A DNA stretch of 64,000 bases from Manis javanica (taxonomy: Eukaryota > Chordata > Mammalia > Pholidota > Manidae), in assembly GCF_040802235.1 (NCBI RefSeq), contig NC_133161.1, positions 45,435,001 through 45,499,000 on the forward strand, written 5' to 3'. The notes under the pieces are model-generated. The model was not told where the DNA came from. It worked only from the letters and a program-made list of their open reading frames with translations, and ran no database searches. Shown one piece after another: positions 7,928-33,445 of this stretch. The translations under genes and the position numbers were made by a program. Positions within the stretch are counted from its first letter, which is position 1. Each line of letters starts with the position of its first letter.

Positions 7928-10900
7928 ATTTTTTTAGCTTTAAAAAATTATTTTTATACATATATATATTTTTTATTAGGGTATCATTGATACACAACCT
8001 TATGCTCAGGTTTCACATGAGCAACATTGTGGTTACTACATTCCCCCCTATTATCAAGTCCCCACCACATACCCCATTACAGTCACTGTCTATCAGCATA
8101 GTAAGATGCTATAGAGTCAATACGTGTCTTCTCTGTGCTATACTGCCTTCCCTGTGACACCCCCCTATATTATGTGTGTTATTCATAATACCCCTTAATT
8201 TCCTTCTCCTTCCCTTCCCACCCACCCTCTCCAACCCCTTTTCCTTTGGTAACTGCTAGTTCCTTCTTGGCATCTGTGAGTCTGCTGCTATTTTGTTCCT
8301 TCCATTTTTGCTTTGTAGTTATATTCCACAAATGAGTGAAATGATTTGGTACTTGTCTTTCTCTGACAGGCTTATTTTACCCAGCATAATACCCTCTAGC
8401 TCCAACCATGTTGCTGCAAATGATAGGATTTGTTTTCTTGTCATGGCTGAAGAATATTCCATTGTGTATATATACCACATCTTCTTTATCCATTCATTTA
8501 CTGATGGACACTTAGGTTGCTTCCATGTCTTGGCTATTGTAAATAGTGCTGTGATAAACATAGGGGTGCATATGCCTTTCTGAATCTTGTTTTCTTTGGG
8601 TAAATTCCTAGGAGTGGAATTACTGGGACAAATGGCATTTCTAGTTTTAGTTCTTTGAGAAAGCAGAGGATCTCAACAGACACTTCTCCAAAGAGGAAAT
8701 TCAGATGGCCAACAGGCACATGAAAAGATGCTCCACATCACAAATCATCAGGGAAATGCAAATTAAACCACAATGAGATGTCACCTCACACCAGTTAGGG
8801 TGGCCAACATCCAAAAGACAAGCGACAACAAGTGCTGGCAAGGGTACAGAGAAAGGGGAACCTCCTACACTGCTGGTGGGAATGTAAATTAGTTCAACCA
8901 TTGTGAAAAGCAATAGAGAGCTCTTTATATATTTTGTATATTAACCTCTTATTGGATATGTCATTTATGAATATATTCTCCCATACTGTAGGATGTCTTT
9001 TTGTTCTGCTGATGGTGTCCTTTGCTGTACAGAAGCTTTTTAGTTTAACGTAGTCCCATTTGTTTATTTTTGCTTTTGTTTCCCTTACCCAAGGAGATTT
9101 GTTCAGGAAAAAGTTGCTTGTGTTTATATTCAAGAGATTTTTACCTATGTTTTCTTCTGAGTTTTATGGTTTTATGACTTACATTCAAGTATCTGATCTA
9201 TTTTGAGTTTACTTTTGTGTATGCAGTTAGACAGTAATTCAGTTTCATTCTCTTATATATAGTTGTCCAGTTTTGCCCACACCAGTTGTTGAAGAAGCTG
9301 TCATTTCTCCATTGTATATTCATGGCTCCTTTATCATATATTAATTGGCCATATATGTGTGGGTTTATATTTGGACTCTCTATTCTATTCCATCGGTGTA
9401 TGGTTCTGTTCTTGTGCCAGTTCCAAATTGCCTTGGTTACTGTGGCTTTGTAGTAGAGTTTGAAGTTGGGAAGTGTAATAATCCACCCCACTTTATTCTT
9501 CCTTCTAATGATGGTTTTGGCTATTCGAGGTCTTTTGTGGTTCCATACGATTTTTAGAACTATTTGTTCTAGTTTGTTGAAGAATGCTATTGGTATTTTG
9601 ATAGGGATTGCATTGAATCTGTGGATTACTTTAGGCAGGATGGCCATTTTGACAATATTAATTATTCCTACCCATAAGCATGGCATGTATTTCCATTTAT
9701 TGGAGTCTTCTTTAATTTCTCTCAAGAGTGTCTTGTAGCTTTCAGGGTAGAGATCTTTCATTTCCTTGATTAGGTTTATTCCTAGGTCTTTTATTCTTTT
9801 TGATGCAATTGTGAATAGAGTTGTTTTCCTGATTTCTCTTTCTGCCAGTTCATTGTTAGTGCATAGGAATGCAACAGATTTTTGTGTATTAATTTTGTAT
9901 CTGGCAACTTTGCTGAATTCAGGTATTAGTTCTAGTAGTTTTGGAGTGGTTTCTTTAGGGTTTTTTTATGTACAATATCATGTCATCTGCAAACAGGGAC
10001 AGTTTAACTTGTTCCTTGCCAATCTGGATGCCTTTTATTTCTTTGTGTTGTCTGATTAATGTGGCTAGGACCTCCAGTACTATGTTGAATAAAAATGGTG
10101 AGAGTGGACATCCTTGCCTTGTTCGTGATCTTAGAGGAAAGGCTTTCAGTTTCTCACTGTTAAGTATAATGTTGGCTGTGGGTTTGCATTTGTGGTCTAT
10201 ATTATGTTAAGGTACTTGCCCTCTATACCCATTTTGTTGAGAGTTTTTATCATGAGTGGATATTGAATTTTGTCAAATGCTTTTTCATCATCTATGGGAT
10301 GATCATGTGATTTCTGTTCTTTTTGTTGATGTAGTGGATGACGTTGATGGATTTTCTAATATTGTACCATCTTGCATCCCTGGAATAAATCCCACTTGAT
10401 CATGATGGATGATCTTTTTGATGTATTTTTGAATTTAGTTTGCTAATATTTTGTTGAGTATTTTTGCATCTATGTTCATCAGGGATATTGGTCCGTAATT
10501 TTCATTTTTTGTGGTGTCTTTGCCTGGTTTTGGTATTACTGTGATGCTAGCTTCACAGAATGAGTTTGGAAGTATTCCCTCCTCTTCTATTTTTTGAAAA
10601 ACTTTAAGGAGGATAGGTATTAGGTCTTCTCTAAATGTCTGATAAAATTCAGTAGTGAAGCCATCTGATCCGGCAGTTTTGTTCTTGTTTAGTTTTTTGA
10701 TTACCAATTCAATTTCATTGTTGGTAATTAGTCTGTTCAGATTTTCTGTTTCTTCCTGGGTCAGTCTTGGAAGGTTTTATTTTTCTAGGAAGTTGTCCAT
10801 TTCTTACAGCTTATTCAATTTGTTAGCATATAATTTTTCATAGTATTTCTCTAATAATTCTTTGTATTTCAGTGGTGTCCATTTAATGATTTTTCCTTTC

Positions 10901-11864
10901 TAATTTCTGATTCTGTTTATGTGTGTAGACTCTTTTTTTATTGATAAGTCTAGCTAGGGGTTTATCTATTTTGTTTATTTTCTCAAAGAACCAGCTCTTG
11001 GTTTCATTAATTCTATTGTTTTATTCTTCTCAATTTTAAAAATTTATTCTCTGATCTTTACTATGTCTCCCTTTCTACTGACTTTGGGCCTCATTTGTTC
11101 TTTTTCCAATTTCATTAATTGTGAATTTAGACTGTTCATTTGGTATTGTTTTTCTTTCTTGAGATCGTCCTGAATTGCTATATAGGTCCCTCCTAGAACT
11201 GCCTTTGCTGCGTCCCACAGAAGTTGGAGCGTTGAGCTGTTGTTTTCATTTATCTCCATATACTGCTTGATTTGTTTTAATTTGGTCATTGACCCACTGA
11301 TTATTTAGGAGCATACTGTTAGGCCTCCATATATTTGTGGGCCTTTTTGTTTTCTTAACACAATTTATTTCTAGTTTCATACATTTGTGATTTGAGAAGC
11401 TGGTTGGTACAATTTTAATCTTTTGGAATTTACTGAGGCTCTTTTTATGGCCTACTATATGATCTATTCTGGAAAATGTTCCATGTGCACTTGAGAAGAA
11501 TGTGTATCCTGTTCCTTTTGGGTGGAGTGCTCTGTAGATGTCTGGTAGGTCCATCTGTTCTAATGTGTTGCTCAGTGCCTCTGTCTCCTTACTTATTTTC
11601 TGTCTGGTTGATCTGTCCTTTGGAGTGAGTGGTGTGTTGAAGTCTCCTAAAATGAGTGCATTGCATACTATTTCCCCCTTTAATTCTGTTAGTATTTGTT
11701 GTACATATTTGGGTTCTCCTATGTTGAGTGTATAGATATTTATAATGGTTATATCCTCTTGATGGACTGATCCCTTTATCATTGTATAACGTTCTTCTTG
11801 GTCTCTTGTTACTGTCTTTGTTTTGAAGTCTATTTTATCTGATATAAGTATTGCAATTCCTGCT
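7928..11864 (-). mobile_element. 5'-truncated L1 with 18-bp target-site duplication and internal inversion
   Basis: An L1 insertion read on the minus strand, from its 3' end near 7928 (L1 3'UTR, then the ORF2 C-terminus) to ORF2 endonuclease sequence near 11864. The identical 18-mer ttttgtttgcagtaagtt flanks it at 7910-7927 and 11865-11882, so this is one retrotransposition event. ORF2 survives only in pieces, for example endonuclease at 11246-11782, reverse-transcriptase start ([12 protein letters not shown]) at 10435-10707 and C-terminal parts at 9198-9761 and 8319-8561. Many stops and shifts make it clearly older than the young pair further right. About 255 bp at 8661-8915 are inverted relative to the rest. 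Confidence 0.92.
8661..8915 (+). repeat. Inverted ORF2 segment inside the 7.9-11.9 kb L1
   Basis: Within an L1 otherwise on the minus strand, this piece reads in the plus sense: cacttctccaaagaggaaat, catgaaaagatgctcc and ctgctggtgggaatgtaaat. These encode the ORF2 C-terminal FSKE..IQMA..HMKRCS region and the part before it. On both sides the minus-strand L1 resumes, with roughly 15 bp missing at the left joint and about 45 bp at the right joint compared with the young copies. Confidence 0.85.
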
Positions 11865-11882
11865 TTTTGTTTGCAGTAAGTT

Positions 11883-13740
11883 TTGAAAGTAGCTGGTAAA
11901 ACTATGTAGTAACTGAAATGATACCTTCCCTGTAACAGGTTCTATATTTACCTAGAAGTTCTAATTAAACTAGAGGAAGTTCAAAATACCTTTATTCTGT
12001 AGTTTGTAACTACAAAAAACTATGACCAAGAAAAACTTCTTTAAAACATAAAGTTCCTGGAATTTCAGAGGGCATGATAAGAGACCACAGATATCTCACT
12101 CCTATTATACAAAATTCAAAGGCAGAGTAATGGGGAATCCTGAGTAGTATTGGGACACACTGCTCTTTCATGATGTCCAGTCCTGGGAAGCTCAGATACA
12201 GCTCAGAAATGATGAACGTAGAAGAAAAGAGGCAGCGTATATTAACTGTACTTCAATAAAAGAAAGGAAGGAAGGCAAAAAGAGAGGAAGGGAGGGATAG
12301 TGGGAGGAAGGAAGGAAGAAAGAAAAGAGGCATGGATGATGAGCAGGCCATTAAACCATTTCTTCATTCAAAGTAATATGCAATTACCCTGGTTAATGTT
12401 ACATATCAGCTTGACTTGGCTAAGGGAGGCCCAGATGCTGGTAAAACAATTTTTCAAGGTATATTTGTGGGGGTGTCTCTGGGAAAAATTAGCATTTGAG
12501 TCATGAGACTGAGAATACCCTCACCAATATGGGCAAATATCAACCAATCTACTGAAGACCTGAATAGAACAAAAAGGCAGAAGAAGGGCAAATGTGCTCT
12601 TTGCTGGACCTGAGATACCCATCTTCTGTCCTAAGACACTGGTATTCCTGGTTCTCAGGCTTTTGGACTCAGACCAGGACTTACACTGAATTGTATCACC
12701 AGCTTCCCTAGTTGTCCAGCTTGCAGAGAGCAAATCATGGGACTTCTCAGTCTCTATAAGTGCATAAGCCAATTCCTATATAAATCTCCTCATTAACAGA
12801 TAGAATGACAGACAGACATATCTCCTACTGGTTGGGTTTCTCTCAAGAACTCTGACTAAACACTTGGAGATGATAAAATATTCAAAATAACAAAAGGGCA
12901 GATGAAAACTGTGGGTCTACACCAGTCCCTGGTCCATCAGACAATCATTAGAGTATCTTCATGTTCAACCCCCTCCCTTTTTTGCTATCGTTTACTGGAG
13001 ATAGAATGAGGCATTAGCCAATCTCCCTCCTTGGAGGGATTAGACAAGACATTTCAGTGAGCAGTGAAGTTTTAGCTCATGTAAGCTACCACTGCCAGGG
13101 GTGGGATAGGGAATAAAAAAATGCCAATTTCACATACTTTGTATTACCCTGAATCATTTCATTACAAAAGGTATAGAGGACATTTATTTTTGGCAACCTA
13201 GCATCCACCCCCACCCTGACCCCCCCACCCTGCCATTTCCATTACCCAAAACTCTATCCAAATAGTTTGGGTGGGACTGACGAATTCCATGGTGGCTGTG
13301 TGATTAGATTGAGATGGAACTTCATATCCTCTGTCCTCAACGAAACATTCTAAAACAGGCAAGTAACCCAGCCAAAGAAAACTCTGGGACTTTTGCTAAG
13401 ATGGGGGAAAGGCAGAAAGAAATGAAGACTGTCTCTTTTTCCCTTGGTCTTGAAGTCGTTTGCCTGGAGCTGTTTTTGCCATCACATGGAACCTAAACAT
13501 GATTCACACATAAGGGGAAAGTGGGTGAGACTATTGATGGAGGCAGTAAAAGGAAGCAAATCTAGATGACAGTTTTGAATACCTCAATCAGACCATGTCA
13601 TACCAATAGATAAGATACCCTCTGGACTTTTCAGTTAAGTGAACCAATAAATACCACTTTTTTATTTCAATCTGAGCTGGTTTTTCTGTAAATAAAAAGA
13701 TTTCTAAAGTGTGACATAATTATTTCACTAAATGTAGTAA
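11883..13740. other. PLEKHA8 intron 1, mixed sequence with a purine tract
   Basis: A purine-rich simple stretch (gaaggaagg/ggaaggaagg types) lies at 12255-12332. At 12370-12870 there is probably an ancient interspersed repeat: it ends with gggtttctctcaagaactctgact, a sequence common at the edge of old mammalian repeats, but I cannot name the family safely. The remainder shows nothing recognisable. Confidence 0.45.
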
Positions 13741-15589: not shown

Positions 15590-16612
15590 TAACTTTAAAT
15601 TTTAGAGCAATTTTAGGTTTAAAACAAAGTTGAGAGAAAGGTACTGATTCCCCACATGCCCCCCACCTGAACACTTGCATAGCCTTCCCCATTATCAATA
15701 TTACTTACCAGAATGGTATGTTTTTTACTATTTACATTAATGCACCATAATCACCCAAAGTTCATAGTTTACACTAGAGTTCACTCTTGGTGTTGTACAT
15801 TTTATGGATTTGGACAAATGTATAATGATATATATCCATCATTATTCATCTCCCACCACAACTCTCCACCGCTCACCTATCTTTATTGTCTTCATAGTTT
15901 TTGCCTTTTCCAGAGTTGGATTCAGTATGTAGCCTTTTCAGATTGGCTTCTTTCACTTAGTAATATACATTTAAGGCTACTCTATGTCTTTTCATGACTT
16001 GATAGCTCATTTCTTTTAAGCACTGAATAATTTCCCATTGTCTGGATAGATCACAGTTTATCCATTTACCTAATGAAAGACATCTCGGTTGCTTCCAAGT
16101 TTGGGATATTATGAATAAAGCTGCAATAAAGATCCTTGTGCAAGTTTTTGTGTGGACCTATGTTTTGGGCAGGCATAAGCTTTCGACTCCTTTGGGTAAA
16201 TACTAAGGAGTGAGATTGCTGAATCATGTGGTAGGAGTATATTTAGTTTTGTAAGAAACTGTCAAACTGTCTTCTAAAGCAGCTGCACCATTCTGCATTC
16301 CCATAAAATAATGTTTAAGAGTTAACCCTGTTATTTCCACATCCTTGTCAGGATTTGGTGTTGTCAGTGTTCTGGATTTTGGCCAAATAGATGTGTAGTG
16401 GTATCTCATTGTTGCTTTAAGTTGCATTTCCCTGATGACATATGATGTGGAGCTACTTTTCATATGCTTATTTACCATCTGTCTATATTCTTTGGTGAGT
16501 TGTCTGTTATGGTCTTTGGCCCATTTCTTAATCAGGTTCTTTCTTTACTTATTGTTGAGTATTAAGAGTTTTTTTGTATATTTTGGATAACAGTCCTTTT
16601 ATCAGATGTGTC
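15590..16612 (-). repeat. Ancient L1 (L1M type), segment 1 of 3: 3'UTR and ORF2 C-terminus
   Basis: It begins with an L1M-like 3'UTR (ttttagagcaattttaggtt, attgagag-like block, ccccacctgaacacttgcat) and passes into ORF2 C-terminal sequence. It is interrupted at 16612 by young L1-A and resumes at 25391. Continuity is shown by the L1-A target duplication and by the ORF2 order across the joint. Confidence 0.85.
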
Positions 16613-16637
16613 TTTTTTTTTTTTTTTTTTTTTTTTT

Positions 16638-16960
16638 GAGAGGGCATCTCTCATATTTATTGATCAAATGGTTGTTAACAACAATAAAATTCAGTATAGG
16701 GGGGTCAATGCTCAATGTACAATCATTAATCCATCTCAAGCCTAATTCTCGTCTGTCTCCAATCTTCTGAAGCATAACGAACAAGTTTTTACATGGTGAA
16801 CGAATTCTTACAGAGTGAATAAATTCTTACATGGTGAACAGTACAAGGGCATTCATCACAGAAACTTTCGGTTTTGATCATGCAATATGACCTATAAACC
16901 ATCAGGTCAAATATGAATATTCATTTGATTTTTGTACTTGATTTATATGTTGATCCCACA
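16638..16960 (-). mobile_element. Retroviral LTR (U3-R, 323 bp) forming the 3' end of L1-A
   Basis: On the minus strand a polypurine run (GGAGAAA, 16961-16967) is followed by TGTGGGATCA, a typical LTR start. The sequence runs 323 bp to a poly(A) junction. The signal AATAAA (16656-16661) lies 18 bases upstream of that junction. The same 323-bp extent occurs in copy B (26364-26686) and in the third copy (41866-42188), so all three were copied from RNA polyadenylated at this LTR site. The U3 part holds three ~19-bp direct repeats (16779-16838). U5 is absent, as expected for an RNA 3' end. Confidence 0.75.
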
Positions 16961-17598
16961 TTTCTCCTATTATTATTATTATTTTTATTTTTAATAAAAT
17001 GCTGAAGTGGTAGGTAGATGCAAGATAAAGGTAGAAAACATAGTTTAGTGCTGTAAGAAGGCAAATGTAGATGATCAGATGATCAGGTGTGTGCCTATGG
17101 ACTAAGTATTAATCCAGGCTAGACAAGGGCAGCAAGACATCCACGGATGCAGAAGATTTCTCTCAAAGCAGGGGGGGGTGAGGTTCTGAGCCTCACCTCT
17201 GTTGATCCCCAAATTCTCACCTGATGGCCCCCCTGCGACTGTGCCTGTCTTAGGTTGTTCCTCCCTTGAGGAATCTTACCCGTCTCTGGCTAACCAGTCA
17301 TCTTCCGGGGCCATACAGGGAAATGTAAAGTTGGTAAGTGAGAGAGAAGCCATATTGTTTGCAAAGGTTAGCTTTTTACTTCTTTGCAGATTTATGCCCT
17401 GTGGCTTCTATGCCCAGCACTTGTCTCGAGGTATCTTTACCACCTGGAGGAATTATGATACTCGGTAAATTCGATATGAGGCACGAATTCTATTTAAGGT
17501 TTGTAATTAGGAAGGAAGAAGAAAAGCTATAGATGTAGCATATGAAGGAAACTTGGGAGGATTGATTATTTCTTTGACATATCTTCTTGTATAGTACC

Positions 17599-18040
17599 TT
17601 AAGTATGTATAGGTTTTAAACTACTAACTAATTTGCACACACATATTAACATAATAGGAATACGGTGACTTAAACAAAGCAAATCTATAATTACCAGCCA
17701 TCTCCAGTGAAGCCAAGAAAACCATTTAGGCACCCTAGGCATTTGTGAAAATTTATCTATAATATGATGGATATTTTCCAACTGTACTTGAACCATCAGA
17801 CAAATTAAAGCAGCCCATTTCTGGGATCTGTTCACATCCCATATGTTCTTTTAACCATAGATAGTCTATAGTCATGAGATTTTGGGGTGCTACAACTTGC
17901 ACCCCTCCCAACCCCTGGTTGAGTTCCAACAGTACAGATCCAGTCAAATTCGTTGTCTCACTGTATGCACATGCCAGCCTAGACATCTCCCTCCTCCTTC
18001 TTATGGCAAGTCCAGGAGACGGTGGGCTGGATGCAGCCAC
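17599..18040 (-). pseudogene. Retroviral env transmembrane-subunit remnant in the L1-A tail
   Basis: Two overlapping minus-strand frames (18040-17753, then 17835-17599) carry features of a gamma/betaretroviral TM subunit. These are a LQNLMTIDYLWL stretch resembling the LQNR..iDyLl segment, followed by a C-x6-GC pattern in place of the usual C-x6-CC, then FNLSD. Further on there is a tryptophan-rich segment and a hydrophobic, cysteine-bearing stretch like a membrane anchor. The two parts are out of frame, and no surface subunit or fusion peptide was recognised. It is a broken fragment carried as L1 3'UTR. The family assignment is by motif only. Confidence 0.65.
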
Positions 18041-18300
18041 AACCGCAGCATCGTCCGGATGCCTGTGGAGGCTTTTTGATGATCATCCCCCGGCACGAGT
18101 CCTCCAGAGAGTGCTGATGCCGGAAGCTCCTCCTCATATCGTATCTTAGTTCATTTTCTGGGTATCCAAGCTAGGCCTTGATCTTCTGCGTAGAAACAAA
18201 CAGACCCTTTGCCCACACTTTGACATGCCCTCTATACCACTGTGCAGAACTCATTGGAGGTCAGCACACAGTAACTGCTTTTTTTTTTTTTTTTTTTTTT

Positions 18301-18477
18301 AATTAAGAGAAAGGAATATTATCAGAAAAGAGTACCTCCATAGCTGATCATCTGACACCCTTTAAGTGATCAACATTAAGGATATTTAAAGCATGCGTTG
18401 ATCTTTGATTTACCAATAGTTTTATCCTGTTAATGAGTAATCCCCTTTTCTTTCTTTCTTTCTTTTTTTTTTTTTTT
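18301..18477 (-). repeat. Intervening segment between two A-rich tracts in L1-A tail
   Basis: About 145 bp (18301-18445) of non-L1, non-env-like sequence, followed on the right by a T/C-rich tract (18446-18477, A/G-rich in L1 sense). On the left is a 22-base T run (18279-18300). The same arrangement occurs in copy B (28017-28202, T run at 28003-28016). The pattern L1 3'UTR, A tract, short segment, A tract, long segment, poly(A) is what serial 3' transduction would leave. Confidence 0.6.
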
Positions 18478-18819
18478 AAATTTTTAATCTACCCTTACAT
18501 GAAGAATACTATGTTTACTATGCTCTCCCCTATATCAGGTCCCCCCTAACAACCCCATTACGGTTACTGTCCATCAGCTTAGCAAAATGTGGTAGAGTCA
18601 CTACTTGTCCTCTCTGTGTTGTGCAGCCCACCCTCCCCTTTCTCCCTCCCCCCCATGCCTGCTAACGTTAATTCCCCCCTCCTTCTTCCCCCTCCTTATC
18701 CCTCCCTGCCCACCCATCCTCCCCAGTTCCTTTCCCTTTGGTACCTGTTAATCCATTTTTGGGTTCTGTAATTCTGCTGCTGTTTTGTTCCTTCAGTTTT
18801 TCCTTTGTTCCTATACTCC

Positions 18820-21800
18820 TCAGATGAGTGAAATCATTTGGTATTTCTCTTTCTCCGCTTGGCTTATTTCACTGAGCATAATACTCTCCAGCTCCATCCA
18901 TGTTGCTGCAAATGGTTGGATTTTTCCACTTCTTATGGCTGAGTAGTATTCCATTGTGTATATGTACCACATCTTCTTTATCCATTCATCTACAGATGGA
19001 CATTTAGGTTGCTTCCAATTCTTGGCTATTGTAAATAGTGCTGCGATAAACATAGGAGTGCATCTGTCTTTCTCAAACTTGATTGCTGCGTTCTTAGGGT
19101 AAATTCCTAGGAGTGGAATTCCTGGGTCAAATGGTAGGTCTGTTTTGAGCATTTTGATGCACCTCCATACTGCTTTCCACAATGGTTGAACTAATTTACA
19201 TTCCCACCAGCAGTGTAGGAGGGATCCCCTTTCTCCACAGCCTCGCCAACATTTGTTGTTGTTTGTCTTTTGGATGGCAGCTATCCTTACTGGTGTGAGG
19301 TGATACCTCATTGTAGTTTTAATTTGCATTTCTCTGATAATTAGCGATGTGGAGCATCTTTTCATGTGTCTCTTGGCCATCTGTATTTCTTTTTTGGAGA
19401 ACTGTCTGTTCAGTTCCTCTGCCCATTTTTTAATTGGGTTATTTGTTTTTTGTTTGTTGAGGCGTGTGAGCTCTTTATATATTCTGGACGTCAAGCCTTT
19501 ATCAGATCTGTCATTTTCAAATATATTCTCCCATACTGTAGGGTTCCTTTTTGTTCTATTGATGGTGTCTTTCGCTGTACAGAAGCTTTTCAGCTTAATG
19601 TAGTCCCACTTGCTCATTTTTGCTGTTGTTTTCCTTGCCCGGGGAGATATGTTCAAGAAGAGATCACTCATGTTTATGTCTAAGAGGTTTTTGCCTATGT
19701 TTTTTTCCAAGAGTTTAATGGTTTCGTGACTTACATTCAGGTCTTTGATCCATTTTGAGTTTACCTTTGTATATGGGGTTAGACAATGGTCCAGTTTCAT
19801 TCTCCTACATGTAGCTGTCCAGTTTTGCCAGCACCATCTGTTGAAGAGACTGTCATTTTGCCATTGTATGTCCATGGCTCCTTTATCAAATATTAATTGA
19901 CCATATATGTTTGGGTTAATTTCTGGGGTCTCTAATCTGTTCCACTGGTCTGTGGCTCTGTTCTTGTGCCAGTACCAAATTGTCTTGATTACTATGGCTT
20001 TGTAGTAGAGCTTGAAGTTGGGGAGTGAGATCCCCCCTACTTTATTCTTCTTTTTCAGGATTGCTTTGGCTATTCGGGGTCTTTGGTGTTTCCATATGAA
20101 TTTTTGAATTATTTGTTCCAATTCATTGAAGAATGTTGCTGGTAATTTGAGAGGGATTGCATCAAATTTGTATATTGCTTTCGGCAGGATGGCCATTTTG
20201 ACGATATTAATTCTTCCTAGCCATGAGCATGGGATGAGTTTCCATTTATTAGTGTCCCCTTTAATTTCTCTTAAGAGTGACTTGTAGTTTTCAGAGTATA
20301 AGTCTTTCACTTCCTTGGTTAGGTTTATTCCTAGGTATTTTATTCTTTTTGATGCAATGGTGAATGGAATTGTTTTCCTGATTTCTCTTTCTATTGATTC
20401 GTTGTTAGTGTATAGGAAAGCTACAGATTTCTGTGTGTTGATTTTGTATCCTGCAACTTTGCTGTATTCCGATATCAGTTCTAGTAGTTTTGGAGTGGAG
20501 TCTTTAGGGTTTTTTATGTACAGTATCATATCATCTGCAAATAGTGACAGTTTAACTTCTTCTTTACCAATCTGGATTCCTTGTATTTCTTTGTTTTGTC
20601 TGATTGCCGTGGCTAGGACCTCCAGTACTATGTTAAATAACAGTGGGGAGAGTGGGCATCCCTGTCTGGTTCCCGATCTCAGAGGAAATGCTTTCAGTTT
20701 CTCGCTGTTCAGTATAATGCTGGCTGTGGGTTTATCATATATGGCCTTTATTATGTTGAGGTACTTGCCCTCTATACCCTTTTTGCTGAGAGTTTTTATC
20801 ATGAATGGATGTTGAATTTTGTCAAATGCTTTTTCAGCATCTATGGAGATGATCATGTGGTTTTTGTCTTTCTTTTTGTTGATGTGGTGGATGATGTTGA
20901 TGGATTTTCGAATGTTGTACCATCCTTGCATCCCTGGGATGAACCCCACTTGGTCATGGTGTATGATCCTTTTGATATACTGTTGAATTCTGTTTGCTAA
21001 TATTTTATTGAGTATTTTTGCATCTACATTCATCAGGGATATTGGTCTGTAATTTTCTTTTTTGGTGGGGTCTTTGCCTGGTTTTGGTATTAGGGTGATG
21101 TTGGCTTCATAGAATGAGTTTGGGAGTATTCCCTCTTCTTCTATTTTGTGGAACACTTTAAGGAGAATGGGTATTATGTCTTCTCTGTGTGTCTGATAAA
21201 ATTCCTAGGTAAATCCGTCCGGCCCCGGGGTTTTGTTCTTGGGTAGTTTTTTGATTACTGTTTCAATTTCTTTGCTTGTAATTGGTTTGTTTAACTTTTG
21301 TGTTTCTTCCTTGGTCAGTCTTGGGAGGTTGTATTTTTCTAGGATGTTGTCCATTTCTTCTAGGTTTTCCAGCTTGTTGGCATATAGGTTTTCATAGTAG
21401 TCTTTAATAATTCTTTGTATTTCTGTGGAGTCTGTCGTGATTTTTCCATTCTCATTTCTGATTATGTTGATTTGTGTTGACTCTCTTTTTCTCTTAATAA
21501 GTTGGGCTAGAGGCTTATCTATTTTGTTTATTTTCTCGAAGAACCAGCTCTTGGTTTCGTTGATTTTTGCTATTGTTTTATTCTTCTCAATTTTGTTTAT
21601 TTCTTCTCTGATCTTTATTATGTCCCTCCTTCTGCTGACTTTAGGCCTCATTTGCTCTTCTTTTTCCAGTTTTAATAATTGTGATGTTAGACTATTCATT
21701 TGGGATTGTTCTTCCTTCTTCAAGTGTGCCTGGATTGCTACATACTTTCCTCTTAAGACTGCTTTCGCTGCATCCCACAGAAGTTGGGGCTTAGTGTTGT

Positions 21801-22662
21801 TGTTGTCATTTGTTTCTATATATTCCTTGATCTCTATTTTGATTTGTTCATTGATCCATTGATTATTTAGTAGCATGTTGTTAAGCCTCCATGTGTTTGT
21901 GAGCCTTTTTGTTTTCTTTGTAGAATTTATTTCTACTTTCATACCTTTGTGGTCTGAAAAATTGGTTGGTAGAATTTCAATATTGTGGAATTTACTGAGG
22001 CTCTTTTTGTGAGCTAGTATGTGGTCTATTCTGGAGAATGTTCAATGTGCACTTGAGAAGAATGTATATCCTGTTGCTTTTGGATGTAAAGTTCTATAGA
22101 TGTCTATTAGGTCCATCTGTTCTAGTGTGTTGTTCAGTGCCTGTGTGTCTTTACTTATTTTCTGCCCGGTGGATCTATCCTTTGGGGTGAGTGGTGTGTT
22201 GAAGTCTCCTACAATGAATGCATTGCAGTCTATTTCCCTCTTTAGTTCTGTTAGTATTTGCTTCACATATGCTGGTGCTCCTGTATTGGGTGCATATATA
22301 TTTAGAATGGTTATATCCTCTTGTTGGACTAAGCCCTTTATCATTATGTAGTGGCCTTCTTTATCTCTTGTTACTTTCTTTGTTTTGAAGTCTATTTTGT
22401 CTGATATTAGTACTGCAACCCCTGCTTTCTTCTCACTGTTGTTTGCCTGAAATATGTTTTTCCATCCCTTGACTTTTAGTCTATGCTTATCTTTGGGTTT
22501 AAGGTGAGTTTCTTGTAAGCAGCATATAGATGGGTCTTGCTTTTTTATCCATTCTATTACTCTATGTCTTTTGATTGGTGCATTAAGTCCATTTACATTT
22601 AGGGTGACTATTGAAAGATATGTACTTATTGCCATTGCAGGCTTTAGATTCGTGGTTACCAA
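18820..22662 (-). pseudogene. L1-A ORF2 (endonuclease-reverse transcriptase), two in-frame stops
   Basis: A single frame of 1281 codons, close to the usual ~1275-residue L1 ORF2p. The N-terminal APE-type endonuclease has [16 protein letters not shown] and VGDFNTPL. The reverse transcriptase has LSLFADDMI as its catalytic box. The C-terminal zinc knuckle has [18 protein letters not shown] (C-x3-C-x7-H-x4-C). A TGA at 22042-22044 replaces the Gly codon after SSAH; copy B has GGA. A TAG at 21205-21207 follows PGPDGFT and is shared with copy B. No frameshift was found. ORF2p nicks DNA and reverse-transcribes L1 RNA at the target. This copy cannot make it without readthrough. Confidence 0.93.
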
Positions 22663-22830
22663 AGGTTCAAGGTTAGCTTCTTTAGTATCTTACTGCCTAA
22701 CTTAGCTCGCTTATTGAGCTGTTATATACACTGTCTGGAGAGTCTTTTCTTCTCTCCCTTCTTATTCCTCCTCCTCCATTCTTCATATGTTGTGTGTTTT
22801 GTTCTGTGCTCTTTTTAGGGGTGCTCCCAT

Positions 22831-23754
22831 CTAGAGCAGTCCCTGTAGGATGCCCTGTAGAGGTGGTTTGTGGGAAGCAAATTCCCTCAGCTTTTGCTTG
22901 TCTGGGAATTGTTTAATCCCGCCATCATATTTAAATGATAGTCGTGCTGGATACAGTATCCTTGGTTCAAGGCCCTTCTGTTTCATTGCATTAAGTATAT
23001 CATGCCATTCTCTTCTGGCCTGTAGGGTTTCTGTTGAGAAGTCTGATGTTAGCCTGATTGGTTTTCCTTTATAGGTGACCTTTTTCTCTCTAGCTGCCTT
23101 TAAAACTCTTTCCTTGTCCTTGATCCTTGCCATTTTAATTATTATGTGTCTTGGTGTTGTCCTCCTTGGATCCTTTCTGTTGGGGGTTCTGTATAATTCC
23201 ATGGTCTGTTCGATTATTTCCTCCCCCAGTTTGGGGAAGTTTTCAGCAATTATTTCTTCAAAGACACTTTCTATCCCTTTTCCTCTTTCTTCCTCTTCTG
23301 GTATCCCTATAATACGAATGTTTTTCCTTTTGTATTGGTCACATATTTCTCTTAGTGTTGTTTCATTCCTGGAGATCCTTTTATCTCTCTCTCTGTCAGC
23401 TTCTATACGTTCCTGTTCTCTGGCTTCTATTCCTTCAATGGCCTCTTGCATCTTATCCATTCTGCTTATAAATCCTTCCAGGGATTGTTTCACTTCTGTG
23501 ATCTCTTTCCTGACATCTGTGATCTCCTTCCGGACTTCATCCCACTGCTCTTGCATTTTTCTCTGCATCTCATCCCACTGCTCTTGCATTTTTCTCTGCA
23601 TCTCATCCCATTGCTCTTGCATTTTTTTCTGCATCTCTGTCAGCATGTTCATGATTTTTATTTTGAATTCTTTTTCAGGAGGACTAGTTAGGTCTGTCTC
23701 CTTCTCAGGTGTTGTCTCTGTGATCTTTGTCTGCCTGTAGTTTTGCCTTTTCAT
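22831..23754 (-). CDS. L1-A ORF1 protein, intact, 307 aa
   Basis: The open frame begins MKRQNYRQTKITETTP and ends GILQGLL. An N-terminal charged part is followed by a coiled coil (about residues 30-115) with three consecutive 11-residue repeats of the MQRKMQEQWDE type. Next come an RRM-like domain (KNIRIIGIPEEEE, about residue 145 on) and a C-terminal domain (ARREWHDILNAMKQKGLEPR and RLSFKYDGGIKQF). L1 ORF1p is a trimeric RNA-binding chaperone that packages L1 RNA in the cytoplasm. It lies 168 bp upstream of ORF2, the normal L1 arrangement. The length is within the range of mammalian ORF1p, although human is slightly longer. This is the only uninterrupted L1 protein in the window. Confidence 0.93.
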   Translation of the reverse strand: MKRQNYRQTKITETTPEKETDLTSPPEKEFKIKIMNMLTEMQKKMQEQWDEMQRKMQEQWDEMQRKMQEQWDEVRKEITDVRKEITEVKQSLEGFISRMDKMQEAIEGIEAREQERIEADRERDKRISRNETTLREICDQYKRKNIRIIGIPEEEERGKGIESVFEEIIAENFPKLGEEIIEQTMELYRTPNRKDPRRTTPRHIIIKMARIKDKERVLKAAREKKVTYKGKPIRLTSDFSTETLQARREWHDILNAMKQKGLEPRILYPARLSFKYDGGIKQFPDKQKLREFASHKPPLQGILQGLL

Positions 23755-25375
23755 TGTGATAGAGATAGTTTGCAGAGCTGGTACAAGTGACCGCTGGAAG
23801 AGCTTCCCTTCTTGTTGGTTTGTAGCCTTTTCCTGGGAGAATAGCGACCTCTAGTGGCTTGTGCTGGGCAGCTGTGCGCAGACAGGACTTCTGCTTCCTG
23901 CCCAGTTGCTTTGAGGTTTATCTCCGCTGTTGCTGTGGGCTTGGCCTGGCTGGGGCTGTTCCTCCAAAATGGTGGAGCCCCGTTGGAGGGGGAGCAGCCA
24001 GGAGACTATTTATCTCCGTAAGGGGCCTCTGTGCTCCCTGCTGCCCAGGGGGTTAGAGTGCCCAGAGATCCCCAGATTCCCTGCTTCTGGTCTAAGTGAC
24101 CTGTCCTGCCCCTTTAAGATTTCCAAAAAGCACTCTCCAAACCAAAACAACAACAGCAACAATGAGAGAGGGAACAGAAAGAAAGAGAAAAAAAAAAAAA
24201 GGAAAAAAAAAGGAAAAAACAAGCGATTTTTTTTGTTTTTTTTTTTTTGTCCTCAGGTGCCGGTCCCAGGCACCCGCTCACTGGTCCTGCTGCCCTGTCT
24301 CCCTAGCACCAGGGTCCCTGTCCTTTCAAGGCTTCCAAAAAGCACCCACCCACCGGTCCCGCAGGGAAGGAACGCTCAATATTCTTTGTCCTCAGGCACT
24401 GGTCCCACGCACCCGCTCACCAGTCCCGCCGCCCTGCCTCCCTAGCACCGGGGTCCCTGTCCCTTCAAGGCTTCCAAAAAGCACTCGGCAAAAAGAGAGA
24501 AAAAAAAGGGGAAAAACGCGCGATTTCTTCCGTCCTCAGGTGCTGGTCTCAGGCACCCACCCACCGGTCCCACAGGGAAAAATGCGGGATATTCTTTGTC
24601 CTCAGGTGCCGGTCCCAGGCACCGGCTCACCAGTCCCGCCGCCCTGCCTCCCTAGCACCGGGGTCCCTGTCCCTTTTAGGCTTCCAAAAAGCACTCGCAG
24701 AAAAGAGAAAAAAAAAAGGGGAAAAACGCGCGATTTCCTCTGTCCTCAAGTGCCGGTCTCAGGCACCCGCCCACCGGTCCCGCAGGGAAAAACGGGGGAT
24801 ATTCTTTGTCCTCAGGCGCCGGTCCCAGCCACCCGCTCACCAGTCCCGCCACCGTGCCTCCCTAGCACTGGGGTCCCCGTCCCTTCAAGGCTTCCAAAAA
24901 GCGCTCGCCCAAAAGAGAAAAAAAAAAAAGGGGAAAAACGCGCGACCTCCTCCGTCCTCAGGCACCGGTCTCAGGCACCCGCCCCCAGGTCTCGCAGGGA
25001 GAAACGCGGGATATTCTTTGTCCTCCGGCGCCATTCCCAGGCACCTCCTCACCGGTCCCGCCACCCTGCCTCCCCAGCAACGGGGGCCCGTCCCTCTAAG
25101 GCTTCCAAAAAGCGCTCGCCAAAAAAAAAAACCGCTCCGGTTTCTCTCCACCCGCCGGGAGCCGGGGGGAGGGGCGCTCGGGTCCCGCCGGGCTGGGGCT
25201 TGTATCTTACCCCCTTCACAAGGCGCTGGGTTCTTGCAGGTGTGGATGTGGTCTGGATGTTGTCCTGTGTCCTGTGGTCTCTATTTTAGGAAGATTTTTC
25301 TTTGTTATATTTTCATAGCTCTATGTGTTTTTGGGAGGAGATTTCCACTGCTCTACTCACGCCGCCATCTTGGCC
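23755..25375 (-). promoter_or_regulatory. L1-A 5'UTR with ~210-bp tandem monomers
   Basis: The 1.62-kb GC-rich leader contains repeated units anchored by cttccaaaaagc at 24332, 24471, 24681, 24891 and 25102 (spacings 139, 210, 210 and 211 bp). Each unit has an A-rich block plus two CCGGTC-containing blocks. The extreme 5' end carries CAAGATGGCGGC, the YY1-like start-site element of L1. By analogy with mouse L1 monomers these units probably act as an internal promoter; this is inference. Confidence 0.75.
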
Positions 25376-25390
25376 TCAGATGTGTCTTTT

Positions 25391-26332: not shown

Positions 26333-26363
26333 TACTTTCAGTTTTTTTTTGTTTTTTTTTTTT

Positions 26364-26686
26364 GAGAGGGCATCTCTCGTATTTATTGATCAAATGGTTG
26401 TTAACAACAATAAAATTCAGTATAGGGGGGTCAACGCTCAATGTACAATCATTAATCCATCTCAAGCCTAATTCTCGTCAGTCTCCAATCTTCTGAAGCA
26501 TAACGAGCAAGTTCTTACATGGTGAACGAATTCTTACATAGTGAATAAATTCTTACATGGTGAACAGTACAAGGGCATTCATCACAGAAACTTTCGGTTT
26601 TGATCACACATTATGACCTATAAACAATCAGGTCAAATATGAATATTCATTTGATTTTTGTACTTGATTTATATGTTGATCCCACA
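26364..26686 (-). mobile_element. Retroviral LTR (U3-R, 323 bp) forming the 3' end of L1-B
   Basis: Same 323-bp LTR as in copy A. The polypurine tract AAAGGGAGAAA (26687-26697) is less eroded here than in copy A. LTR start TGTGGGATCA, AATAAA at 26382-26387, poly(A) junction at 26363/26364. Confidence 0.75.
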
Positions 26687-27326
26687 TTTCTCCCTTTATT
26701 ATTATTATTTTTTTTATTTTTAATAAAATGCTGAAGTGGTAGGTAGATGCAAGATAAAGGTAGAAAACATAGTTTAGTGCTGTAAGAGGGCAAATGTAGA
26801 TGATCAGATGATCAGGTGTGTGCCTATGGACTAAGTATTAATCCAGGCTAGACAAGGGCAGCAAAACATCCACGGATGCAGAAGATTTCTCTCAAAGCAG
26901 GGGGGGTGAGGTTCTGAGCCTCACCTCTGTTGATCCCCAAATTCTCACCTGATGGCCCCCCTGCGACTGTGCCTGTCTTAGGTTGTTCCTCCCTTGAGGA
27001 ATCTTACCCGTCTCTGACTAACCAGTCATCTTCCGGGGCCATACAGGGAAATGTAAAGTTGGTAAGTGAGAGAGAAGCCATATTGTTTGCAAAGCTTAGC
27101 TTTTTACTTCTTTGCAGATTTATGCCCTGTGGCTTCTATGCCCAGCACTTGTCTCGAGGTATCTTTACCACCTGGAGGAATTATGATACTCGGTAAATTC
27201 GATATGAGGCTGGAATACTATTTAAGGGTTGTAATTAGGAAGGAAGAAGAAAAGCTATAGATGTAGCATATGAAGGAAACATGGGAGGACTGATTATTTC
27301 TTTGACATATCTTCTTGTATAGTACC

Positions 27327-27770
27327 TTAAGTATGTATAGGTTTTAAACTACTAACTAATTTGCACACACATATTAACATAATAGGAATACGGTGACATA
27401 AACAAAGCAAATCTATAATTACCATCCATCTCCAGTGAAGCCAAGAAAACCATTTAGGCACCCTAGGCATTTGTGAAAATTTATCTATGATATGATGGAT
27501 ATTGTCCAACTGTACTTGAACCATCAAATTAAAGCAGCCCATTTCTGGGATCTGTTCACATCCCATATGTTCTTTTAACCATAGATAGTCTATAGTCATG
27601 AGATTTTGGAGTGCTACAACTTGCACCCCTCCCAACTCCTGGTTGAGTTCCAACAGTACAGATCCGGTCAAATTCGTTGTCTCACTGTATGCACATGCCA
27701 GCCTAGACATCTCCCTCCTCATTCCTATGGCAAGTCCAGGAGACGGTGGGCTGGATGCAGCCACAACCAC
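27327..27770 (-). pseudogene. Retroviral env TM-subunit remnant in the L1-B tail
   Basis: An open frame of 147 codons covering the same env TM-like region as in copy A. It has LQNLMTIDYLWL, a C-x6-GC pattern in place of C-x6-CC, then a Trp-rich segment and a hydrophobic stretch. Compared with copy A, 4 bp are missing just after the FNL codons (near 27527). This puts the two halves of the region in one frame and removes the SD that follows FNL in copy A. The continuous frame is therefore a secondary accident and not evidence of selection. No signal peptide, surface subunit or fusion peptide is present. Confidence 0.6.
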
Positions 27771-28546
27771 AGCATCATCCGGATCCCTGTGGAGGCTTTT
27801 TGATGATCATCCCCCGGCACAAGTCCTCCAGAGAGTGCTGATGCCGGAAGCTCCTCCTCATATCGTATCTTAGTTCATTTTCTGGGTATCCAAGCTAGGC
27901 CTTGATCTTCTGCATAGAAACAAACAGACCCTTTGCCCACACTTTGACATGCCCTCTATACCACTGTGCAGAACTCATTGGAGGTAAGCACACAGTAACT
28001 GCTTTTTTTTTTTTTTAATTAAGAGAAAGGAATATTATCAGAAAAGAGTACCTCCATAGCTGATCATCTGACACCCTTTAAGTGATTAACATTAAGGATA
28101 TTTAAAGCATGCATTGATCTTTGATTTACCAATAGTTTTATCCTGTCAAGGAGTAATCCCCCTTTTCTTTCTTTCTTTCTTTTCTTTTCTTTTTTTTTTT
28201 TTAATTTTTAATCTACACTTACATGAAGAATACTATGTTTACTATGCTCTCCCCTATATCAGGTCCCCCCTAACAACCACATTACGGTTACTGTCCATCA
28301 GCTTAGCAAAATGTTGTAGAGTCACTACTTGTCCTCTCTATGTTGTGCAGCCCACCTTCCCCTTTCTCCCTCCCCCCCATGCATGCTAATCTTAATACCC
28401 CCCTTTTTTCCCCCCCCGCCCCTTATCCCTCCCTGCCCACCCATCCTCCCCAGTTCCTTTCCCTTTGGTACCTGTTAGTCCATTTTTGGGTTCTGTAATT
28501 CCGCTGCTGTTTTGTTCCTTCAGTTTTTCCTTTGTTCCTATACTCC

Positions 28547-31500
28547 TCAGATGAGTGAAGTCATTTGGTATTTCTTTTTCTCCGCTTGGCTTATTTCACT
28601 GAGCATAATACTCTCCAGCTCCATCCATGTTGCTGCAAATGGTTGGACTTTTCCACTTCTTATGGCTGAGTAGTATTCCATTGTGTGTATGTACCACATC
28701 TTCTTTATCCATTCATCTACCGATGGACATTTAGGTTGCTTCCAATTCTTGGCTATTGTAAATAGTGCTGCGATAAACATAGGGGTGCATCTGTCTTTCT
28801 CAAACTTGATTGCTGCGTTCTTAGGGTAAATTCCTAGGAGTGGAATTCCTGGGTCAAATGGTAGGTCTGTTTTGAGCATTTTGATGAACCTCCATACTGC
28901 TTTCCACAATGGTTGAACTAATTTACATTCCCACCAGCAGTGTAGGAGGGTTCCCCTTTCTCCACAGCCTCGCCAACATTTGTTGTTGTCTGTCTTTTGG
29001 ATGGCAGCTATCCTTACTGGTGTGAGGTGATACCTCATTGTAGTTTTAATTTGCATTTCTCTGATAATTAGCGATGTGGAGCATCTTTTCATGTGTCTCT
29101 TGGCCATCTGTATTTCTTTTTTGGAGAACTGTCTGTTCAGTTCCTCTGCCCATTTTTTAATTGGGTTATTTGTTTTTTGTTTGTTGAGGCGTGTGAGCTC
29201 TTTATATATTCTGGACGTCAAGCCTTTATCGGATGTGTCATTTTCAAATATATTCTCCCATACTGTAGGGTTCCTTTTTGTTCTATTGATGGTGTCTTTT
29301 GCTGTACAGAAGCTTTTCAGCTTAATGTAGTCCCACTTGCTCATTTTTGCTGTTGTTTTCCTTGCCGGGGGAGATATGTTCAAGAAGAGGTCACTCATGT
29401 TTATGTCTAAGAGGTTTTTGCCTATGTTTTTTTCCAAGAGTTTAATGGTTTCATGACTTACATTCAGGTCTTTGATCCATTTTGAGTTTACCTTTGCATA
29501 TGGGGTTAGACAATGGTCCAGTTTCATTCTCCTACATGTAGCTGTCCAGTTTTGCCAGCACCATCTGTTGAAGAGACTGTCATTTTGCCATTGTATGTCC
29601 ATGGCTCCTTTATCAAATATTAATTGACCATATATGTTTGGGTTAATTTCTGGGGTCTCTAATCTGTTCCACTGGTCTGTGGCTCTGTTCTTGTGCCAGT
29701 ACCGACTTGTCTTGATTACTATGGCTTTGTAGTAGAGCTTGAAGTTGGGGAGTGACATTCCCCCCTACTTTATTCTTCTTTTTCAGGATTGCTTTGGCTA
29801 TTCGGGGTCTTTGGTGTTTCCATATGAATTTTTGAATTATTTGTTCCAATTCATTGAAGAATGTTGCTGGTAATTTGAGAGGGATTGCATCAAATCTGTA
29901 TATTGCTTTGGGCAGGATGGCCATTTTGACGATATTAATTCTTCCTAGCCATGAGCATGGGATGAGTTTCCATTTATTAGTGTCCCCTTTAATTTCTCTT
30001 AAGAGTGACTTGTAGTTTTGAGAGTATAAGTCTTTCACTTCTTTGGTTAGGTTTATTCCTAGGTATTTTATTCTTTTTGATGCAATGGTGAATGGAATTG
30101 TTTTCCTGATTTCTCTTTCTATTGCTTCGTTGTTAGTGTATAGGAAAGCAACAGATTTCTGTGTGTTAATTTTGTATCCTGCAACTTTGCTGTATTCCGA
30201 TATCAGTTCTAGTAGTTTTGGAGTGGAGTCTTTAGGGTTTTTTATGTACAGTATCATATCATCTGCAAATAGTGACAGTTTAACTTCTTCTTTACCAATC
30301 TGGATTCCTTGTATTTCTTTGTTTTGTCTGATTGCCGTGGCTAGGACCTCCAGTACTATGTTAAATAACAGTGGGGAGAGTGGGCATCCCTGTCTGGTTC
30401 CCGATCTCAGAGAAAATGCTTTCAACTTCTCGCTGTTCAGTATAATGCTGGCTGTGGGTTTATCATATATGGCCTTTATTATGTTGAGGTACTTGCCCTC
30501 TATTCCCATTTTGCTGAGAGTTTTTATCATGAATGGATGTTGAATTTTGTCAAATGCTTTTTCAGCATCTATGGAGATGATCATGTGGTTTTTGTCTTTC
30601 TTTTTGTTGATGTGGTGGATGATGTTGATGGATTTTCGAATGTTGTACCATCCTTGCATCCCTGGGATGAATCCCACTTGGTCATGGTGTATGATCCTTT
30701 TGATATACTGCTGAATTCTGTTTGCTAATATTTTATTGAGTATTTTTGCATCTACATTCATCAGGGATATTGGTCTGTAATTTTCTTTTTTGGTGGGGTC
30801 TTTGCCTGGTTTTGGTATTAGGGTGATGTTGGCTTCATAGAATGAGTTTGGGAGTATTCCCTCTTCTTCTATTTTGTGGAACACTTTAAGGAGAATGGGT
30901 ATTATGTCTTCTCTGTGTGTCTGATAAAATTCCTAGGTAAATCCGTCCGGCCCTGGGGTTTTGTTCTTGGGTAGTTTTTTGATTACTGTTCCAATTTCTT
31001 TGCTCGTAATTGGTTTGTTTAACTTTTGTGTTTCTTCCTTGGTCAGTCTTGGGAGATTGTATTTTTCTAGGATGTTGTCCATTTCTTCTAGGTTTTCCAG
31101 CTTGTTGGCATATAGGTTTTCATAGTAGTCTTTAATAATTCTTTGTATTTCTGTGGAATCTGTCGTGATTTTTCCATTCTCATTTCTGATTATGTTGATT
31201 TGTGTTGACTCTCTTTTTCTCTTAATAAGTTGGGCTAGAGGCTTATCTATTTTGTTTATTTTCTCGAAGAACCAGCTCTTGGTTTCGTTGATTTTTGCTA
31301 TTGTTTTATTCTTCTCAATTTTGTTTATTTCTTCTCTGATCTTTATTATGTCCCTCCTTCTGCTGACTTTAGGCATCATTTGTTCTTCTTTTTCCAGTTT
31401 TAATAATTGTGATGTTAGACTATTCATTTGGGATTGTTCTTCCTTCTTCAAGTGTGCCTGGATTGCTATATACTTTCGTCTTAAGACTGCTTTCGCTGCA

Positions 31501-32390
31501 TCCCACAGAAGTTGGGGCTTAGTGTTGTTGTTGTCATTTGTTTCTATATATTCCTTGATCTGTATTTTGATTTGTTCATTGATCCATTGATTATTTAGTA
31601 GCATGTTGTTAAGCCTCCATGTGTTTGTGAGCCTTTTTGTTTTCTTTGTAGAATTTATTTTTACTTTCATACCTTTGTGGTCTGAAAAATTGGTTGGTAG
31701 AATTTCAATATTTTGGAATTTACTGAGGCTCTTTTTGTGAGCTAGTATGTGGTCTATTCTGGAGAATGTTCCATGTGCACTTGAGAAGAATGTATATCCT
31801 GTTGCTTTTGGATGTAGAGTTCTATAGATGTCTATTAGGTCCATCTGTTCTAGTGTGTTGTTCAGTGCCTGTGTGTCTTTACTTATTTTCTGCCCGGTGG
31901 ATCTATCCTTTGGGGTGAGTGGTGTGTTGAAGTCTCCTACAATGAATGCATTGCAGTCTATTTCCCTCTTTAGTTCTGTTAGTATTTGCTTCACATATGC
32001 TGGTGCTCCTGTATTGGGTGCATATATATTTAGAATGGTTATATCCTCTTGTTGGACTGAGCCCTTTATCATTATGTAGTATCCTTCTTTATCTCTTGTT
32101 ACTTTCTTTGTTTTGAAGTCTATTTTGTCTGATATTAGTACTGCAACCCTTGCTTTCTTCTCACTGTTGTTTGCCTGAAATATGTTTTTCCATCCCTTGA
32201 CTTTTAGTCTATGCTTATCTTTGGGTTTAAGGTGAGTTTCTTGTAAGCAGCATATAGATGGGTCTTGCTTTTTTATCCATTCTATTACTCTATGTCTTTT
32301 GATTGGTGCATTAAGTCCATTTACATTTAGGGTGACTATTGAGAGATATGTACTTATTGCCATTGCAGGCTTTAGATTCATGGTTACCAA
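28547..32390 (-). pseudogene. L1-B ORF2, TAG stop plus frameshift
   Basis: The frame is open from the start at 32390 through a complete endonuclease domain ([22 protein letters not shown] and NFSDHKGMK, the catalytic E, D/N and SDH positions) to PGPDGFT. There a TAG at 30933-30935 interrupts it, at the same codon as in copy A. The reverse transcriptase (LSLFADDMI) continues in the same frame to about 29755. There one extra base, compared with A (gtgacattcccccc versus gtgagatcccccc on the plus strand), shifts the frame. The C-terminal half with the zinc knuckle follows at 29758-28547. Total span is 3844 nt, one more than copy A. Confidence 0.92.
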
Positions 32391-32558
32391 AGGTTCAAGG
32401 TTAGCTTCTTTAGTATCTTACTGCCTAACTTAGCTCGCTTATTGAGCTGTTATATACACTGTCTGGAGAGTCTTTTCTTCTCTCCCTTCTTATTCCTCCT
32501 CCTCCATTCTTCATATGTTGTGTGTTTTGTTCTGTGCTCTTTTTAGGGGTGCTCCCAT

Positions 32559-33445
32559 CTAGAGCAGTCCCTGTAGGATGCCCTGTAGAGGTGGTTTGTG
32601 GGAAGCAAATTCCCTCAGCTTTTGCTTGTCTGGGAATTGTTTAATCCCGCCATCATATTTAAATGATAGTCGTGCTGGATACAGTATCCTTGGTTCAAGG
32701 CCCTTCTGTTTCATTGCATTAAGTATATCATGCCATTCTCTTCTGGCCTGTAGGGTTTCTGTCGAGAAGTCTGATGTTAGCCTGATGGGTTTTCCTTTAT
32801 AGGTGACCTTTTTCTCTCTAGCTGCCTTTAAAACTCTTTCCTTGTCCTTGATCCTTGCCATTTTAATTACTATGTGTCTTGGTGTTGTCCTCCTTGGATC
32901 CTTTCTGTTGGGAGTTCTGTGTAATTCCATGGTCTGTTCGATTATTTCCTCCCCCAGTTTGGGGAAGTTTTCAGCAATTATTTCTTCAAAGAGACTTTCT
33001 ATCCCTTTTCCTCTTCTTCTTCTGGTATCCCTATAATACGAATATTATTCCTTTTGTATTGGTCACATATTTCTCTTAGTGTTGTTTCATTCCTGGAGAT
33101 CCTTTTATCTCTCTCTATGTCAGCTTCTATACGTTCCTGTTCTCTGGCTTCTATTCCTTCAATGGCCTCTTGCATCTTATCCATTCTGCTTATAAATCCT
33201 TCCAGGGATTGTTTCACTTCTGTGATCTCCTTCCTGACATCTGTGATCTCCTTCCGGACTTCATCCCACTGCTCTTGCATTTTTCTCTGCATCTCATCCC
33301 ACTGCTCTTGCATTTTTCTCTGCATCTCTGTCAGCATGTTCATGATTTTTATTTTGAATTCTTTTTCAGGAGGACTAGTTAGGTCTGTCTCCCTCTCAGG
33401 TGTTGTCTCTGTGATCTTTGTCTGCCTGTAGTTTTGCCTTTTCAT
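32559..33445 (-). pseudogene. L1-B ORF1, frameshifted by a 4-bp deletion
   Basis: Same start as copy A. The coiled-coil part is open at 33445-32999 and the C-terminal domain at 32930-32559. A 4-bp loss in the codons for the run of glutamates (near 33013; GIPEEEE in copy A) breaks the frame. It has two, not three, of the 33-bp coiled-coil repeats. The length difference from A (37 bp) equals 33 plus 4. Confidence 0.92.

Follow-up and report, generated by a model that had tools for sequence, protein, structure and literature searches.

The SVA elements of hominids, which end in SINE-R, are composites without open reading frames (ORFs) and need L1 in trans (PMC12593883). Human L1 can also acquire additional sequence by 3′ transduction, in which the L1 signal is skipped, extra 3′ sequence is included, and polyadenylation takes place downstream (PMC12593883). 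Human insertions derived from spliced L1 RNA are described as SpIREs; one class, affecting the 5′ untranslated region (5′UTR), accounts for 116 genomic copies, and SpIREs are regarded as mostly dead ends (PMC5860796). In the Chinese pangolin, ERV-Alpha-Mpen comprises alpharetrovirus-related endogenous retroviruses (ERVs), some long terminal repeats (LTRs) of which group with Manis javanica LTRs in Dfam (PMC12584738). Here, we describe an L1 lineage of M. javanica that carries, behind its own 3′UTR, a tail of about 1.64 kb related to the 3′ end of a retrovirus. It was analysed in a stretch of 64,000 nucleotides (contig NC_133161.1, positions 45,435,001 to 45,499,000 of the forward strand), referred to as the window, and in the genome assembly from which this stretch originates. 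Feature coordinates are those of the window.

Two full-length L1 copies with the tail are located on the minus strand of the window. Copy A (16617–25377) is flanked by duplications at 16604–16616 and 25378–25390 (AGATGTGTCTTTT), copy B (26349–35236) by duplications at 26333–26348 and 35237–35252 (TACTTTCAGTTTTTTT). They are 8.8–8.9 kb long, share 96.2% identity over 8,536 aligned columns, and possess the ORF1, ORF2, target duplications, and 3′ poly(A) of a LINE-1, with ORF2 broken by stop codons in both. In copy A, ORF1 and ORF2 together cover 18820–23850 on the minus strand, ORF1 as a stop-to-stop frame at 23850–22831 and ORF2 as three stop-to-stop stretches (22689–22042, 22041–21205, and 21204–18820). 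The 5′-truncated copy C (41330–42198, plus strand) contains nothing but the final ~870 nt of the tail; it lies in the opposite orientation, has its own 19-bp duplication (41311–41329 and 42199–42217), and is 92.5% identical over 896 columns. A preliminary description of this DNA had reported two full-length L1s with different target duplications and the same extra 3′ sequence as well as a third copy of the tail end at 41330; both statements proved correct. An older partial L1 without tail (about 7980–11920, minus strand) served as the comparison copy. It shares 84% identity with copy A over 2,968 columns and has kept AATAAA at its 3′ end.

Past the ORF2 stop of copy A (18820), the 3′UTR, which closes with an A-tract containing GAAA units, is followed on the minus strand by a middle segment of ~145 nt (18301–18446) with a pyrimidine-rich stretch ahead of a splice acceptor, a second A-run (18279–18300), and the tail (18277–16638). 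The tail had previously been placed behind the L1 3′UTR and one A-rich tract; the first part of this statement stands, but the single tract does not, since the middle segment and the second A-run intervene. The corresponding tail of copy B is located at 26364–28001 (minus strand). An open piece of 109 amino acids in copy A (17756–18082, minus strand) matched the envelope transmembrane subunit (TM) of the alpharetrovirus ASLV (4jpr) in phmmer searches of PDB (E 3e-6 and 3.4e-6), and the TM frame of copy B is open for 159 amino acids (27327–27806). The unaltered TM piece of the older copy L038 matched the ASLV TM at E 3.2e-10 and, at 1.4e-5, the ectodomain of a GP2 belonging to that broad class; the stronger match in an older copy fits the expected decay of a viral gene. 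The resemblance to an env TM region noted earlier was thus confirmed, and instead of disappearing on database search it grew in the older copy. Judged from these matches, the TM region of the tail is related to a known retroviral TM subunit. The surface subunit (SU) is largely missing from the tail env, as far as its length tells. The rear TM piece gave nothing useful in PDB. In IMG/VR, the TM piece led to seven stretches with no relative among them, and the tail end to none. A relation to an Rfam family was rejected, the sole match being PCA3_2, whose 15.9 bits (E 0.22) fall far short of the gathering score of 100. Ahead of the TM region, an open piece of 26 amino acids (18154–18231, minus strand) resembles the C-terminus of integrase by eye.

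The last part of the tail (16638–16960, minus strand) is LTR-like. It starts with TGTGGGATCA directly behind the purine tract GGAGAAA (16961–16967, minus strand), carries AATAAA (16656–16661, minus strand) 18 nt ahead of the poly(A), and stops at the poly(A) site. The purine tract adjoins TGTGGGAT, and many older copies have the longer form AAAGGGAGAAA. A purine tract, a TG start, and a poly(A) signal in R, as in an LTR, are therefore all found, and so is the end 18 bases past AATAAA that had been described before. About three tandem 19-bp units, resembling a U3 enhancer array, are present in the LTR-like end of the three copies (16779–16840, 26508–26566, and 41988–42043). Elsewhere in the genome, five LTR-like starts on the same strand (C8:572677, 621173, 669635, 728140, and 790561) are spaced 48–62 kb apart and have the look of a tandem segmental duplication.

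The M. javanica assembly holding the window (2,559,957,944 bases, 63 contigs) contains many copies of the tail. With the tail as query, 2,951 first-look candidates were obtained, and the 40 that were scored all showed 98–100% identity over essentially the full 1,641 bases. The junction between A-run and tail was found at 14,777 places (7,367 + 7,410) at up to three mismatches, a count that takes in only copies long enough to reach the junction; the backward-read control gave 0. A tree built on a 1.8-kb piece of ORF2 in 20 copies placed copy A, L030, L032, and L047 in a tight cluster whose end branches measure 0.0006–0.0017, which indicates recent activity of the lineage. With this number of junctions, and with the youngest sampled ORF2s differing by a fraction of a percent, the earlier proposal that the chimera itself became the amplifying lineage is supported.

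At the L1's own end, GATTAAA was present in 22 of 23 readable rows, GATCAAA in one, and AATAAA in none, copy A being counted twice. The LTR-like end carried AATAAA in all 26 readable rows, likewise with copy A counted twice and with a finding pattern that itself contains AATAAA. The L1 hexamer of the tail lineage is ATTAAA, compared with AATAAA in the older tail-less L1 of the window. Of the suggestion that the LTR signal replaced the L1 signal, the change to ATTAAA is directly visible; the takeover itself is plausible because the L1's own hexamer no longer reads AATAAA. From the sequence, the lineage seems to rely on a retroviral signal to end its RNA, and we infer a need for the LTR-like signal.

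In some copies, the L1 3′UTR (...ATGGACTAACAG) is joined directly to the tail. Since copy A reads AACAG/GTACC at the corresponding site (18745/18744) and AAAAG/CAG where the tail begins (18278/18277), the joined copies have lost a 467-nt GT...AG intron (18278–18744, minus strand). Its donor GT is located in the L1 3′UTR, 75 nt past the ORF2 stop, and its acceptor directly precedes the opening base of the tail. Two exon joins were detected, ACTAACAG/CAGTT and, 3 nt further, ACTAACAG/TTACTG, as expected of a NAGNAG acceptor. Among 48 distinct fetched loci, a non-random sample in which six loci fetched twice were counted once each, 14 had the first join, 2 the second, 20 were unspliced, and 12 were of other types. 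Genome-wide, the ACTAACAG/CAGTT type of join was found at 92 places (backward-read controls 0) compared with the 14,777 unspliced ones, so splicing is a by-product affecting a small minority of copies. A pattern excluding the A-run (5,499 places) had made spliced copies seem common by design. Splice joins in the 5′UTR were also present in L029 and L032, and in L051 a 5′UTR donor was joined straight to the tail acceptor. With integrated copies whose exons meet precisely at GT...AG sites, the lineage shows SpIRE-like splicing. In the trees, spliced and unspliced copies are intermixed, which fits recurrent splicing better than a single deletion. Because the L1 poly(A) site lies within the intron, as do both A-tracts, the spliced RNA retains the LTR-like signal alone. 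The rule for nonsense-mediated decay is set at about 50–55 nt past the stop, and the junction at 75 nt lies beyond it. A join of ORF2 to the tail in L024 was rejected as a splice, as there is no GT on the L1 side. In the insertions L009, L010, L013, L014, L015, and L021 (about position 1509, query orientation), the opening base of the tail is also that of the insertion and stands behind TTTAAAA-like flanks; either chance or a 5′ truncation that stopped at the exon boundary could account for them.

The acceptor at the start of the tail raises the question whether the tail was acquired by splicing, that is, whether an L1 read-through RNA was spliced from the 3′UTR donor into the env acceptor of a downstream provirus, with the spliced form as the original one. 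Retroviral env splice acceptors sit near the end of integrase, and the start of the tail coincides with the acceptor, close to where the integrase-looking piece ends; moreover, spliced copies occur among both old and young copies. The ratio of 92 spliced to 14,777 unspliced places, however, rules against the spliced form as the main or original form, and the old-type copy L052 (18 of 18 readable sites old type) is unspliced and contains the middle segment. We therefore regard acquisition by splicing as quite unlikely.

The tail is not uniform in its history. The tree was used to define three groups, with four old, three mid, and nine young copies. Old and later copies showed a net divergence of 10.4% over the first 450 nt, compared with 1.9% over the remainder of the tail and 0.75% in ORF2 (old–mid means 0.104 for tail 0–450, 0.019 for tail 450–1450, and 0.0075 for ORF2), while the mid–young means were 0.019, 0.0195, and 0.004, respectively. 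Of 57 fixed differences, 43 fall into the first 450 nt and four past 680. A one-break model was preferred over a uniform one with a likelihood ratio of 56 and a best break at 680. The divergence within groups shows no step along the tail; a step confined to the comparison between groups means either an exchange of the tail front or two captures. Copy L029, with a later-type front (42/43 sites) and a mostly old-type rear (9/13), supports the exchange. The oldest copy, L036, has a mixed front with 30 old and 6 later sites.

A replaced front implies that the 3′ end acts as an exchangeable module. An extended version of this idea, in which the L1 3′ end is repeatedly taken from or exchanged with ERVs and the TM frame is retained as a useful third reading frame, has a very low probability in our view. 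The TM frame (about 164 amino acids) is open in six of the ten copies having enough sequence. When 20 copies were compared with copy B, substitutions by codon position (163/197/283) were equivocal on coding constraint; an in-register stop was absent in 16 of the 20, yet a frame-shifting gap occurred in 11. Third codon positions account for 17 of the 33 fixed differences between old and later copies in the TM frame, a share that the evolution of the virus itself could explain just as well.

Taken together, the L1 lineage probably gained its tail by 3′ transduction of the 3′ end of an alpharetrovirus-like provirus, with an env mostly devoid of SU, followed by an exchange of the tail front. An ancestral L1 would have been situated ~150 nt upstream of, and oriented like, the ERV end. 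Transcripts of this L1 would have passed the L1 poly(A) site, used the poly(A) signal of the LTR, and been retrotransposed. The chimera, with 3′ ends 18 nt past the LTR-like AATAAA, has amplified, as the copies show. The junctions also show occasional splicing of its RNA, in which the donor 75 nt past the ORF2 stop is joined to the tail at its opening base or 3 nt beyond, and the integration of the products. The front ~450–680 nt of the tail would later have been replaced once by that of a more divergent relative, possibly through a switch between RNA templates or through another capture, with the remaining tail and the L1 kept. In outline, this agrees with the preliminary description as to the retroviral TM, the place behind the 3′UTR, the retrovirus-type poly(A) end, and the amplification; the middle segment, the intron, and the front exchange had been missed.

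Several points weigh against an origin by transduction. A source locus, with an L1 beside the transduced sequence, was not among the fetched loci, no search having been aimed at it. Neither a provirus nor a 5′ LTR or U5, which a shared non-A continuation of AATAAATATGAGAGATGCCCTCTC would mark, was seen, with no dedicated genome search behind this. Pfam returned no family for any of seven tail pieces (five from copy A, two from older copies), the TM pieces included, and the 26-amino-acid integrase-like piece gave chance matches only in PDB and nothing in Pfam. The groups underlying the divergence values were picked after the tree had been seen, and most of the old copies had been selected as spliced. 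Starts at TGTGGGAT behind a non-purine upstream flank were detected at 79 places (13 at one mismatch, control 0), all of which 5′ truncations could yield.

Finally, the middle segment and the second A-run fit template switching as well. In this case, the reverse transcriptase would have begun with a retroviral RNA bearing a poly(A) tail and then switched to the poly(A) of an L1 transcript, so that a single insertion placed L1 upstream of the retroviral end. The A-run directly ahead of the tail in unspliced copies is what an L1 poly(A) at the joint would give, and the exchanged tail front indicates that such switching may occur in this lineage. This A-run, however, follows ~145 nt that are not L1 3′UTR and has no AATAAA 10–30 nt ahead of it, and would therefore resemble an ordinary L1 end only if an additional, earlier transduction is assumed. 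We consider template switching possible but rather unlikely as the origin of the tail.

The retroviral nature of the very end can also be questioned. An env fragment followed by a chance purine tract and TG might have received its poly(A) at an ordinary signal of cellular or L1 origin. In addition to the 79 places, which are possibly truncations, this would accord with the fact that no primer-binding site, U5, 5′ LTR, or second LTR was seen, no dedicated U5 search having been completed. On the other hand, the order of TM, purine tract, TG, and AATAAA matches a retroviral 3′ end. Among 64 readable rows with foreign flanks, nine had the start variant GATTAATA, compared with none of 47 rows from fetched tails; given the unequal sampling, this suggests independent LTRs only weakly. 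A non-LTR end is very unlikely. GATTMAY, considered as a mark of separate ERV LTRs, was discarded: 4,881 exact places carry it behind the purine tract, that is, in tails, and old tails have GATTCAC, so this form is not diagnostic of an ERV.

Further repeats were observed in the L1 copies. The 5′UTRs of copies A and B contain about 4–5 tandem units of ~210 bp (24342–25131 and 34007–34980), the number of which differs between the two; these units recall the monomers of mouse L1. ORF1 contains a 33-bp coding repeat (MQEQWDEMQRK-like), with three units in copy A (23537–23637) and two in copy B (33261–33328). Outside the L1 copies, the region 47290–48131 is GC-rich with open frames overlapping on both strands and is perhaps a CpG island.

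As for the donor of the tail, ERV-Alpha-Mpen is no more than a lead, based on its published description (PMC12584738). Annotated LTR and env matches in pangolins may often be L1 tails, and ERV counts in these animals could be inflated. No description of an L1 with an ERV tail was found in the part of the literature surveyed, which does not establish its absence from print. The lineage opens tests of the 3′-end requirements of L1, of a possible benefit of an LTR signal for the export or polyadenylation of L1 RNA, and of the cost of an intron in the 3′UTR.

With the human 3′ transduction families, the pangolin lineage would share the signal-skipping route to extra 3′ sequence; it differs in that the extra end is found on thousands of copies, has its own retroviral-type signal, and has itself been partly replaced. 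It resembles the SpIREs in its insertions from spliced RNA, 5′UTR splice forms (L029, L032) included. Unlike in SpIREs, the pangolin intron is located behind ORF2 in the 3′UTR, has its acceptor at the retroviral tail, and leaves the ORFs whole. The closest analogue in the consulted literature is the SINE-R of hominid SVA (PMC12593883), which has the same make-up of the end. The pangolin copies themselves are not SVA or SINE-R: an HERV-K10-derived end, hexamer, Alu-like, and variable number tandem repeat parts, and a lack of ORFs do not apply to them, as they have ORFs and an alpharetroviral env match. Compared with the ORF-less SVA composite, the pangolin end derives from a different retrovirus, has a better kept TM region, and sits on an autonomous full-length L1. 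An autonomous L1 with a retroviral 3′ end represents a parallel to SVA SINE-R that has arisen on another branch with another virus.

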